Below, one piece after another: positions 40,301-47,400 of a stretch of 64,000 bases of DNA. Origin of the DNA: Halichondria panicea (lineage: Eukaryota > Porifera > Demospongiae > Suberitida > Halichondriidae); the NCBI RefSeq assembly GCF_963675165.1, contig NC_087389.1, positions 2,700,001-2,764,000 on the forward strand, in the 5' to 3' direction. Within the stretch, counting starts at the first letter, position 1. Every line of letters begins with the position of its first letter. The position numbers and the translations under genes were made by a program. The notes beneath the pieces were generated by a model, which ran no database searches, had not been told where the DNA came from, and worked only from the letters and a program-made list of their open reading frames with translations.

Positions 40301-43300
40301 ATCAAGGTTCTACTGTACAGTGTATCTGTCATTACATAGTGCATACATGTGCATGTGCATGTACATGCACTTGTACTAGCTCACACTCGGCTTGCATATC
40401 CTGAGTAGGTTGAGTGCCTTGCCACAGGTGAGGATGGTATGGGCCTGGCCTTCCAGGAACCCAGGGGCACACCCCCCACTAGCAGTGTACCCCTCATTCC
40501 AGTATTTATCATCTACACAGTACACCAGGAATAAGTTTACATAACACTGCCATTAGGCATGGCATAAACAGAAAAGCCACTTTACACAAATGTTTACACG
40601 AATGAATTGAGCAATACATGTCTACCTCTTCTAGCGAGGGCCTCCACACTGACATGCAGTCCAAACTCCTCCCCCATGTCCAGCCATCCCTGAAACACCC
40701 ACTGTTCCACAAACCTGCCAAAACAGTGCGCTATGTGAGTACCATGTCTTAGCAGCAATGATTATGTTAGCTAGGCCACTACCATATCTACAGTATACAC
40801 TTACATGTACATGTACATGAGCATCCATAAATAATTATTGGGTTAAAACTTAGAAGATTGGGTTAGAAGATTGTTAGGGTACATGCAAATTAGCCAATAA
40901 TGGCTTTGTGTAGAATTGTACATGAAGACTCAAGACAGCATGCTGTACTTCTAAAAATTCGACACAACTTACTTGAAATATGGTGCCAGGGCCTGTGCTA
41001 GTAGATGTAGTAGCAAGAGGTAGTGAGGGGTTCCCACCACCTGATAGGTCTGATTATAAAGGGCATCCAGTAGAGCAAGCCCCTGAAGAAGGCAGTGGAA
41101 CAGAGGGGTGAATACATGTACATGTACATGCGTGCAGACACATCAACTCTAATCTGTCTAGGAGTAGCACCATAGCACACACCTTGGGTAAATTTCTGGC
41201 TTCGTTCCAAAGGCCCATCAAGAATCTAAAGCATGAAAGATTATACTTCCAGTAAGATACACACCACTACAACATACTTGACTGTGGGTAGAATCCAATT
41301 TGCTGACAGTGAAAGGGTTAAGCCTGAAGCCTCCCCTAACCAGCATAATAGTAATTTTGCTGGTGAGTCTCCTACATGTACACTGTACCTGCTAGTTGAT
41401 GAAGCTGTGCTCTAAAGTAGTCCTGCAGTGATTGGACAGCTTCCCCAAACATCCGCGACACACTGCCACCCTCCTGTGATAGTGCAGCCACATATATTTA
41501 TATGGCATATCACTTAAACACAATGGCTTTTGAAGGTTAGACTCTGTATTTGCACAGGGTACAGCCTTTGGCCTGAGCAAAAACTTTTGCAGTCTACTTA
41601 AGAACACTAGCAGCTAACACATTTTGTACAAACGCTTGATGATAAAAGTAGTGCAACCAAAAACATATTTAGAGCACCTGGAATGTGTTGATAAAAACCA
41701 TGGGAAGGTTGTCCAGGTCACGGATGACTTTGCTCTCAAGGGAACTCCCATCCTCCACCTCAGACTGTGCCATGCCCCCCAGTGAGCAGTAGCGGGAGAG
41801 ACACAGCTCAATGGCATGGGGCAGGCAAGTCTCTGAGCCATCACAGAGGTACTGACGAGAACTAAAGGGGGGGGGGGGGGGGGGGCAGTGGAAATCTGAT
41901 GATTCAATAGCAAAATTATGACCACTACCTGTCTCAATACAAAAATGTAAGAAACAAGTTCTTGCTATTGGTATTCAATCACTCGGTTAGGACAATCTAA
42001 CCATCTCGCGCTACACCATTTCATGTGCAGTCATCCCATCGTTTTATATCTTCAACCCCATCAGTAATGCAACAGCACATCCAAATCTATACATGGCAAC
42101 ACCCAACACCTTCCAATAGTGACATACCAAGTCTGCCAGCCCTCCCATTCCCTGATGCTTTCTGGGTCATCTCCATTCGGCGGCCATGAGAAAAGATCCT
42201 GACCGGACCCTGCTGCTGTGTTGAAAACAGAAGCCTGCTCCTTGGTTAGTGAGGATACTGTGTCTGTTGTTGACGGGCGTGCAACACTGGTCTCCTGTAC
42301 AATAGAGCCAGATTAATGCCTAAATTGTTAGTCTGACCTTCAGTTTCTTACAGCCGTGCATATTCCTATTACATCGGCCACCAGAAATGTTCACACAAAT
42401 GTATGTACAGTATTATTATTTCACACTTAGTCTGAACTAATACAATACAAACAAGCAACCATCCACTCACCCCACGAGGCAGCAGGGGAGTGTTGTCCTG
42501 ACTGTAGGGAAGCTGTGGCAGTCCCAGTGGAGTGTTAATGTCCTCTACAGTACTGTGTACCAGTCCATGATAAAGAGTGTTGGTGGCCTGGTCCTCCATA
42601 CTAGGGTGAGCTGACAGGAAGCTGTCGAACCCAGTGCCAGGAGTGCGTTCAAACAGCTACAGTGTACATGGTGTAATCTACGTGTATTACAGAGAACTTG
42701 CCATTCTCAAACTACTCAAAGTGATGATAATTATGGCTGTTGCATTAAAACTACGTAGAGTCATGAATGTTGAGTCATGAATGTACAAGAAAACAATGTT
42801 TTAATTGCTCACAGAGACGCTTTCAGAGAAATCGTCCTTCATATCAGTTAAATCACTGTGATTGGGAGGTTTCTCAAAAAATAAGCTGTTGCGGAAAGAA
42901 AAACAGTAGCAAGGTCTCTTTGAATAATCTATACTTACCTCGAATAGATATCATATCGAAAAGGTGCACCTTCTTTTTGCTGAACCTAAGAAATGGGTGA
43001 CTTATAATTATAAGAGTGCCTACAAGAATATATCATGTCAATGAGATGCATACAAGTTTAGATTTTGATGCCATCAAGACCCATTGCCCCACCCCGCCCA
43101 ACTCTATTGACACCCACTAGGGTCAGCTTTCTTGTTGTCAAATGTTTGTTGCTAAGCAACAATTTATGACATGGAAATGTGAAATGACTCTTGGCAGTAT
43201 ATATGCCAGCCAGAGGAGGTACGACAGGTGCGGTGCAGCTCAGGCAATTAGCCTTTGATTGAGCAATAATTATCCACCCACGTCGTATGCTTTTGCTGAG

Positions 43301-44053
43301 AGTATATAATCAGTGGCTAATTGCTTGAGCTGCACCGCGCTTGTCGTACCTCCTCTGTATGCCAGCTAGAGCTGATAACACAGACCGAACCCACACAGTC
43401 TGAGCAGTCACTGAGAACTCAGGTACCCGGTAGCCATGCAATGCAGTATCATTAGAACAAGTGACACCTCAACCTCAACTTCACCATAGGACCACTAAAA
43501 ACCAGATATAGATACTAATTCCATGGATATAAACAGAATAGAGTTCATCCTAATAATTATAGTCCCAAGGAATCAAAAATTCGTCACTCACGTTCACCAC
43601 AGGAAGGTTGTCATGGCTGTTGTTTACCTGCACCTCGGCAAGTAAGGAGAGGAATGTCAACATGGCCTCGCACTCTTTGAACACCCTACACTCAGTGAAA
43701 GCGCTCACCGCCTCAACAAGGCGACCAGCATCATCGCTTTTACCATCACACATGAGGTGATAGCTAAAAGACATACACTTGCAAGCTGGGGACAGGATAG
43801 CACCCCCTTTGCTCATGCCAAACCACTCCCATCTCCTCAGAAGAATCGTGTCATAAAACTTTCTCACTAGGTTGCTACATAGTTTAGTGCTGGACTCAGT
43901 GCTCCATAAAGATACATTTTTCGGAGCTTGAAAGGTACTTTTCAGAGGGTTGGTGTATGTGTAGCTGGTTTTGTCCTCAGCCATGTACTGACATAGCTCC
44001 CACACAAGCTTGAGCGGAGATACCTCAACAAATCCCAGGCTAACTTCAGTCAT
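34372..44053 (-). CDS. TUBGCP6: gamma-tubulin complex component 6
   Basis: Twenty-three exons in gene order: 44053-43592, 42985-42939, 42885-42813, 42656-42471, 42294-42128, 41861-41678, 41473-41382, 41225-41183, 41082-40973, 40714-40626, 40512-40385, 39844-39695, 39453-39372, 39295-39213, 39063-38123, 37708-37422, 37230-37089, 36556-36258, 35874-35780, 35390-35172, 35034-34973, 34875-34700, 34457-34372; 4203 nt, 1400 residues. The N-terminal GRIP1 half is followed by a long charged helix (EKAREDMIAYYAGLSRKAE), a low-complexity linker with a repeated motif, then the GRIP2 half: STLVNEALLRYFL, LLEDGEFGHALS, WPCNIVITSTSVEKYNK, QHFVNVMHGYIANQV, KKAAPVMKLI, GYQPHLEDFLLRLDFN. The long inter-GRIP insertion is specific to GCP6. 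It should act in the gamma-tubulin ring complex in microtubule nucleation and centriole duplication. Confidence 0.96.
36712..37063. mobile_element. non-autonomous element with 9-bp target duplication in a TUBGCP6 intron
   Basis: 352 bp. Left end TAGTCACACAAGCCACGCCC, right end GGGCGTGGCTTGCGAGATTA; arms extend through CCCTTCATTC-AAGAAGG against CCTTCTTCGAGTGAAGGG. Exact flanking 9-mer GCATGCTAG on both sides (36703-36711 and 37064-37072). The right terminus differs from the left inside the outer bases, so the element is somewhat diverged. No ORF. Confidence 0.85.
37363..37395. repeat. short hairpin
   Basis: AGCACATTACAGAAT and its exact reverse complement ATTCTGTAATGTGCT flank a 3-base loop in a TUBGCP6 intron. 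Confidence 0.85.
40081..40315. mobile_element. pogo/Tigger-like MITE
   Basis: Left end CAGTGGAATCTCGGACACC, right end ATCAAGGTTCTACTG, bounded by TA on both sides (40079-40080 and 40316-40317). The TA duplication and a terminus of the form CAGTRGAACCTYG are characteristic of pogo/Tigger-type Tc1-mariner relatives. About 235 bp, no transposase, in a TUBGCP6 intron. Confidence 0.75.
43184..43512 (+). pseudogene. degenerate inverted copy of CFAP20DC exon 8, split by a MITE
   Basis: Plus-strand sequence in TUBGCP6 intron 1 that aligns to the CFAP20DC exon at 45003-44827 (minus strand). Shared strings include ACACAGTCTGAGCAGTCA, TGAGAACTC, AATGCAGTATCATTAGA and AGGACCACTAAAA. Small indels break the frame, and homology fades after CCAGAT. 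The MITE at 43211-43357 interrupts it. Its target duplication TATGCCAGC corresponds to TATGCTAGC in the intact exon, so the functional exon shows the empty site. No flanking intron sequence could be aligned, so the copied unit seems to be little more than the exon. Confidence 0.8.
43211..43357. mobile_element. MITE, CAGAGGAGGTACGACA family, copy 2
   Basis: 147 bp; left end CAGAGGAGGTACGACAGG, right end TTGTCGTACCTCCTCTG. The inverted arms also share GTGCAGCTC-AGCAATTAG-like sequence. Exact 9-bp duplication TATGCCAGC on both sides (43202-43210 and 43358-43366). The outer 16 bp equal those of the element at 31422-31531 while the interiors differ, defining a family by its ends. Confidence 0.9.
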
Positions 44054-44448: not shown

Positions 44449-47400
44449 TTACTGTGCTAGCTCATAGTATTTACCTGTAACTGGGTCATAAAAACAATTT
44501 AACTGAGGGTCATACATTAATTCAAGTTCCTCTCCTTCAGTGGTTGCTTTTTCAGGGTCTCTGACAAAGTCTGGTTCTTCAGTGAGCGTGCCTGACAAAG
44601 GACTTAGCATTCCTCCCATGTCACTGAAACGAAAAAAGGAAAAAAATCTTCATGGCTGCATGTACAGTGCTGGTATGCATATGTAATCTACTTTACCGTG
44701 TATCCAAGGAATCATGTAGCGGATTTATTGCAGCATCTTTAAACTTCTCAGTCCAGCCACTCAGAGTCTGTTGTAGGTTTATTTGTAGTGTACAGAAAAA
44801 GTCTCATTCAATCACAACACACATACCACGCTGCCAGATAGAGTGGCCTCTATTTCTGAATCTGGTTTTAGTGGTCCTACGGTGAATTCTTGAGGTATCC
44901 CTTGCTCTAATGATACTGCATTGGCTAGCCGAGTTCTCAATGACTGCTCAGACTGTGTCAGGTCTGTGTCATCGACGCTAGCATACTGCCGCCAATCATA
45001 GTCCTATCAGGTGCCATTATATTAACTATAATGCGAGTAGGCCCTAGTATGCTCTATACATGGTTGAGTTTCACAAACTTACATCAGATAGCCTTGTCTC
45101 GTTTAGCTGGTCATGAGGGGGACTACCACTGTTTTGATTTCCTGGTGTCATTGGCGTGCTGCCATCCTTCTGTTGAGAGGATCTTAGCCTGACCTCAACA
45201 ACAGGAGGTGCAAACAGTATCGATGACTTAGGGTTGGCTTCTTTGACTGGTGACACAAAGTCAGCCTCCAGGTCAGCACTTCGACCACCCTCTAGAGACT
45301 CCTGATTTTGATTGAACAATGAGAAAAATTGAATGGTGGCACAGCACATAATCAGCTACAAATGTAGAGCATTATATAAGTTCACGTACCCAAAATTCTA
45401 TACATATGATATACGGCTCTTTACATTCTTTTTGTAGGTTAAGCATTGCCTGAGCCGGCACAATAATACTATAATAATTATAAAGATTACCAAAATGTGT
45501 TTACTGTCTTTGAAGTCGGATTGCTTCCTCTCTGCTGATCGGGGCAAGGATCGATACAAGTAGAGCACCTCATCTACAGAGTTGTCCAGATCCAACTGCT
45601 TCATGTTACTAGTCACACTGGTGTTTAGCATTTGTGATTCATCTGAATAATCCTCTGAAATCCCACTTGCATTTAGACCACTAATTTGATTCGCTTTGCT
45701 TGAAGTGTTGTCCATGTAGTTATCTTGGGCATTGTCCTTGTACTTCAAAACATCAAGAGCCAAGTGCACATCTTGATCGAGATAATCTTCTATTGATTGT
45801 TGTTCAGTCGTTAAACTACTGCCAGTATGTCCAGTTTTAACAGAATCAGAATATGCAGTACTCTTACTAGAGATAGTCTCACTGACACCAGTTTGAAAGC
45901 CACTGTCAACGGACGTGGAGCTAGGTACAGTTTTCGACACCTGCAACATAGCTTCAGGCTTTTTCTTTCCTCCACTGATCATTCTAACTCTTTTCTTTTG
46001 CACTCTGAGCATTGCAGGGTCTGCTGGCTTAGATGGTGGTCGTGGCTGGAAGCTCTGACCATCAACCAGTGTCATTTCCCTAACACTTCTGGCACTGTCA
46101 ATTGAGGACGTTCGGCTAGACAGAGCAGATCTACTGGACTAAAACAAAGCAAAAACGATGTGAGAGTTTTTCCAATAAAATTAAGGTTGGACCATAATCA
46201 AGTCACTCTCACACACACTCTACCACATGTAAGTGAAAGGTACGGGTGTATATACATGTACATCATAATTAATATTTATGTACCGGTTTTGATCCCAATA
46301 TATGGTCTGGAATTGTAAATTTCTTTCCAAATGCAATGTGAGTAGGACGTTCATCAGCAGTAACCATGTTCTCAGAAGAAGATGAGCCCACGGTACTAAC
46401 AGTGCCATCTGTACTGGTTGGTTTGTCATATGATGGACAGCTCACACTTGCATAGGATATCACCTGACAATGGGATATTCTATAATGAAGCTATATCATA
46501 GTGCTAGAAATAATTATGTGAGCATATATAGAAGTATGTGTTTTGGCTCCAAAAATATTATGCGATAAAACAATTTTGCTCCTATTGCTTGAGTCGCGTT
46601 TGTTAGCAAGAGAAAATAATTATAATAACATTATAGTCCTACATGTAGCAGCTAACCTGCAGTCCTACACACACAACACACCCTCATGTACTGCTGTACT
46701 TATTTCCCCATTGATTAAAGAAGAGGGATTGGAAATGGAAGATACCTCGAATTATATCCGCGATACGCCGGGGTTTAATCGAGGCTATGCATCTAACGTT
46801 GAGTAAAAACTAGGCTATAGGTAGTATTCATGTACTCCTGGTAGTACTTTGCTCTCATTCTGCAGGGGGCATGAAAATGACGTTTTAGGGGGGCTCTGAG
46901 TGTCTTAATTGCACAGGTCATAATTCGTTTCCCCGCATATGTGTTGCGCAACAGTAACACGGATTAATTAACATCAAAATCTTTTTGTGCCATGCTGTAA
47001 AATGTCAGGTGATGCTACTTCCGTTTCCAATCCCTCTCCTCTTTAATCTATAATTAAACAGTGGATTCAATGGGATATGCACATACATGTACCTCAACTA
47101 ATTGTACGACACGAAATATATAACAGTATCAGGCATAACATTCTAACAGTACATGCAGTATACTTCTAGGAATGCTCTGTAAGTAGTGTCAAGGGGACTA
47201 AATCAAACACATCATGCAACATGTATACACACGGCATGCACATGTACCTGTGTCTGAGCAGTGGCCACACTGGTGGGCATTTGATAAGCTCGTGGAATTT
47301 CCTCGAATGGCGGGCTCACTTCAGTACCAGTGGTGTCCGGAGGTGAAGATTTGAGGGTAAAAACACGGCGAATTATGCAGCTTCCCCCAATAGAGACCCC

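Follow-up and report, generated by a model that had tools for sequence, protein, structure and literature searches.

A decayed, inverted copy of a CFAP20DC exon segment in intron 1 of the neighbouring TUBGCP6 gene of Halichondria panicea, and the MITE associated with it

The window analysed here, a 64,000-nucleotide stretch of Halichondria panicea contig NC_087389.1, carries two neighbouring genes, CFAP20DC and TUBGCP6 (GCP6), both on the minus strand. These names, proposed in the initial annotation, are sound, since Pfam matches were obtained both for CFA20_dom (E=1.3e-20, in exons upstream of the exon studied here) and for GCP6_N (E=7.6e-10, with the exons of the host gene joined). As read from the sequence, the CFAP20DC exon displays AG/GT borders and an open frame in phase with the neighbouring exons, while in GCP6 the exon 1 donor lies at ~43591 and the next exon at ~42984, with the copy described below located between them. 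Prokaryote and viral collections, in which relatives of the CFAP20DC gene were sought to assess conservation of the exon, yielded none, as expected for an animal gene. The coordinates of all features are listed in Table 1.

Table 1. Features of the CFAP20DC/TUBGCP6 locus (window coordinates)
Feature	Position	Strand	Details	Basis
TUBGCP6 (GCP6) intron 1	42984..43591 (approximate extent)	-	holds the copy	splice-like borders, frames read from sequence; GCP6_N match
Inverted copy, left part	43184..43210	+	exon nt 5-21; ends in the left target-site duplication	13/17 identity, collinear with right part
Left target-site duplication	43202..43210	.	9 bp, TATGCCAGC	exact match to 43358-43366
MITE	43211..43357	.	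147 bp, long imperfect terminal inverted repeats (CAGAGGAGGTACGACAGG...)	repeat family, arms, hairpin, consensus
Right target-site duplication	43358..43366	.	9 bp, TATGCCAGC	exact match to 43202-43210
Inverted copy, right (main) part	43365..43512	+	exon nt ~22-149; frame lost via net insertions	75% identity including gaps, E=1.6e-19
Copied part of CFAP20DC exon	44999-44855	-	exon nt 5-149	alignment with intronic copy
CFAP20DC internal coding exon (source)	44827..45003	-	177 nt, 59 codons, phase 0 at both ends	

In order to compare the intron with the exon, the MITE was removed by joining 43100-43210 to 43367-43600, and the resulting sequence was aligned to the reverse complement of 44750-45100. 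A single local alignment was obtained, pairing 43184-43512 with 44999-44855 at a score of 154, the highest score reached by 500 shuffles being 39. Without the MITE, the copy aligns in unbroken form and in inverted orientation to nt 5-149 of the exon, and the alignment limits are those that had been assigned to it previously. When the 39 contigs of the genome (131 Mb in total) were searched with the exon as query, the sole matches were the exon and, at 75% identity and E=1.6e-19, 43365-43507; the exon piece thus has two places in the genome, and the copy is not a dispersed repeat. These results bear out the proposal of a decayed, opposite-strand copy of the CFAP20DC exon in TUBGCP6 intron 1. 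Reverse-orientation identity is above chance, and the distance to the donor is only ~1.4 kb. Elsewhere in the window, tests of two further local inverted pairs (21277/22011 and 36703/37069) showed both to be dispersed repeats, indicating that the copy/exon pair is of a different kind. Taken alone, the left part of the copy is a weaker match, equalled by 0.25-0.35% of window positions and by 0.4-0.5% of shuffles.

The initial annotation spoke of an exon-only copy, as though the exon had been the unit. The aligned segment, however, stops 28 nt inside the exon end, and this position constitutes one of the copy breakpoints; the last 28 exon nt are either missing or nearly unrecognizable, and may persist weakly (p=0.034). 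A copy that reaches the exon end past a 24-bp insertion is a weak possibility, at p=0.034. The left flank was compared to intron 7 and exon 7, and the right flank to intron 8 and exon 9, and neither comparison revealed homology (p=0.25-0.99). In simulations where both sides were allowed to drift, intron homology of the same age was detected in 85-95% of trials; since none was seen here, both breakpoints are placed in the exon or next to it. A larger inverted duplication encompassing introns or exon 7, which according to the simulation would usually be visible, was not seen. The copied piece thus holds exon sequence alone or almost alone, and the unit of copying was not the exon as a whole.

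Confinement to the exon raises the question of an RNA source. The flanks carry no match to exons 7 or 9, and no poly-A tract was seen beside the copy; a processed retrocopy was rejected, as the neighbouring exons are missing. A more restricted form of RNA origin would be a patch, in which part of a CFAP20DC transcript, after reverse transcription, would have been taken up at a break, as in class 2 templated insertions, for which the use of RNA has been proposed (PMC5110952). The presence of exon sequence only would suit such a patch, but no neighbouring exon is attached, poly-A was not seen, and a source just 1.4 kb away favours a local DNA template. In addition, we estimate that at this locus a 145-bp piece would fall wholly within one exon almost as often if taken from DNA as from mRNA, and the missing intron sequence therefore hardly discriminates between the two. 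We thus consider an RNA patch unlikely; although DNA and RNA templates are not distinguishable here, local DNA 1.4 kb away provides the simplest reading.

The element that interrupts the copy has arms of 57 nt that are 86% complementary, and its hairpin has z=-13. Its family is abundant, with 808 matches to the terminal inverted repeat ends in the genome. We read 27 other copies, two of which are segmental duplicates of others, leaving 25 that are independent; target duplications of 9 bp, allowing no more than one mismatch, flank 20/25 of these, while one has a duplication of 8 bp and four have none. Because family copies carry such duplications, the MITE borders are fixed without recourse to the exon. 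This modifies the previous argument, in which the intact exon served as proof of the borders; the proof comes instead from the target duplications of the family. The duplication TATGCCAGC had also been said to equal TATGCTAGC of the exon at the same aligned position, but one base differs, and the placement is nearly tied. Indeed, in alignments that span the site the exon's GCTAG is paired, at the cost of one 8-bp gap, with the GCTAG that straddles the right end of the duplication, while the pairing of TATGCCAGC with TATGCTAGC calls for two gaps of 4 bp and has equal mismatches. The left part of the copy is collinear with the right one and ends at the target duplication, but it is short (13/17); a position of the MITE within the copy, and not at the edge, is well supported though not certain.

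Target duplications of 8-9 bp are also generated by Merlin elements. The terminal inverted repeats, absence of coding capacity, high copy number and 9-bp duplications of the MITE are traits of MULE-type MITEs, and the element probably stems from a Mutator-like family; its 9-bp duplications and the length of its terminal inverted repeats are shared with Mutator-like (MULE) MITEs, such as Muta1-derived elements, whose duplications measure 8 or 9 bp (PMC5225508). It differs from them in that no autonomous partner, namely a transposase-bearing relative with the same ends, was found at 12 MULE loci with 3.5-4 kb flanks or in shorter stretches around MULE/Merlin-type matches. What looked like a 2.8-kb element on contig C1 proved to consist of two separate MITEs.

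We note that the genome is rich in DNA transposons, with MULE transposase domains in long open frames of ~800-960 codons (for example at C2:979312, C12:1785729 and C1:5153312) and 24 matches to DDE_Tnp_IS1595 (Merlin-type). Within the MITE family, the copies of two pairs (L004/L005, C11 1.61/1.69 Mb; L006/L007, C1 13.40/13.73 Mb) have the same flanks and target duplication, indicating that host segments were duplicated after insertion. Two further copies (L002 and L028) are inserted at points a few bases apart within a short stretch, tgatcccgtac, that appears to be common to both sites and may represent a host repeat or a favoured target.

The window MITE differs from the consensus of the 25 copies at 7/143 positions (4.9%), while 16-21 substitutions in ~145 sites (11-15%) separate the copy from the exon in alignments covering 43184-43512, the range reflecting gap costs. 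The Fisher test for this difference gave p=0.009 with 21 substitutions and 0.08 with 16, in a comparison where the consensus was built from the closest copies and where the exon's own changes enlarge the distance of the copy. The sequence of events put forward earlier, with copying followed by decay and then by MITE insertion, is upheld by the nesting and by the two divergence values. Divergence is in agreement with nesting and supports an order in which the copy would have come first and the MITE later.

In the main alignment, differences between copy and exon are distributed evenly over the codon positions (7/7/7), which indicates that the copy decayed as non-coding DNA, and stop codons occur in all three of its frames. 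Both the flat spectrum and the broken frame are as expected for neutral drift of a sequence copied from an exon under constraint. In this alignment, the copy is the longer sequence at every clear length difference (by 8, 4, 7, 4, 4 and 1, or 28 nt in sum), and in an alternative alignment 9/10 gaps are insertions in the copy. Some of the insertions are tandem (CCTCAA CCTCAA, ATGCA ATGCA).

These length differences bear on the direction of copying. If the intronic sequence were the older one, the CFAP20DC exon would have arisen by inverted copying and shortening of that sequence, in keeping with the fact that every clear length difference makes the intronic sequence longer. The exon, however, is coding, has phase 0 and an open frame, and sits between parts of the gene that look conserved, and the 28 nt of gaps do not preserve the frame, which makes them unlikely as deletions in an exon. 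We therefore regard this reverse direction as very improbable; the constraint on the exon as coding sequence, together with gaps that disrupt the frame, argues that the intron received its copy from the exon.

Exclusive insertion, as in the clear indels at 43386-43497, is unusual for neutral decay. Under equal rates of insertion and deletion, the observed bias (6/6, or 9/10 depending on the alignment) has p ~0.01-0.016, a value that concerns one locus and a test chosen after the data had been viewed, with uncertain gap placement. The only length difference between the MITE and its consensus is also an insertion, of 4 bp at ~43304. It is conceivable, but distinctly unlikely, that local repair in this lineage is biased toward insertion, in which case the inverted patch, the at least 6 later, small and partly tandem insertions and the 4-bp insertion of the MITE would all stem from a single error-prone end-joining activity that operated repeatedly on the intron.

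The best explanation for the copy, and one that we hold to be probable, is a single local inverted templated insertion, arising through a template switch or as a break-repair patch. A break or stalled fork in GCP6 intron 1 would have been under repair when ~145 bp of CFAP20DC exon sequence, from a site ~1.4 kb away, were copied and inserted in inverted orientation. Devoid of function, the copy would then have drifted, acquiring substitutions and small, partly tandem insertions, until it was interrupted by the 147-bp MITE, with duplication of 9 bp. For the break or template switch, parallels are documented: double-strand-break patches can insert sequences from distant DNA or RNA (PMC5110952), and both templated and inverted insertions occur at yeast breaks (PMC11724301).

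The copy resembles class 2 TSIP/MMBIR-type templated insertions in being a short, non-mobile fragment from elsewhere, with neither target duplication nor poly-A seen, but its source is merely 1.4 kb away and inverted, and its junctions are too old for microhomology to be scored. It also recalls the short-range four-point template switches of the Loytynoja and Goldman type, which yield a local reverse complement of nearby sequence. However, at ~145 bp over 1.4 kb the copy is both longer and farther from its source than these events, for which templated pieces in great apes have a median of 12 and a maximum of 128 nt (PMC7954356).

Template switching stays the best of the two origins suggested initially. 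The other, capture and reinsertion of the exon piece by a transposable element, gains some appeal from the MITE that sits in the copy, from the MULE transposases that are common in the genome, and from a 44-bp repeat fragment ~90 bp to the left of the copy. The MITE, however, is complete without exon sequence, with its target duplication inside the copy; flanks are single-copy except for the 44-bp fragment, the right flank entirely so, and the exon piece is found nowhere else in the genome. The search for other copies or for paired element ends around 43184-43512 yielded none, and the capture scenario was rejected, its probability being very small indeed. The fragment itself, at 43052-43095, belongs to a low-copy dispersed repeat with a ~50-bp unit present at ~12 places, several of which are clustered on C11 at 6.16-6.52 Mb, and was ruled out as a second templated patch.

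With both genes on the minus strand and the copy inverted, RNA from the GCP6 intron would carry the antisense of ~145 nt of the exon, and the copy could in principle serve a function, for example as antisense RNA from GCP6 pre-mRNA against CFAP20DC. The identity of 75-85%, the many gaps and the interruption by the MITE make this scarcely credible; the copy has no Rfam match, and constraint was not seen. The exon fragment in the intron is real, but as a genomic scar it is of an ordinary kind and gives no indication of function, and as far as the DNA reveals it entails no change to either CFAP20DC or TUBGCP6. For claims of exon-only copies, the present case illustrates that the significance of missing intron homology can be tested beforehand by simulation. 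As a layered scar, in which an inverted templated insertion would have been followed by decay and then by a transposon, it can be used to date events in the GCP6 intron.
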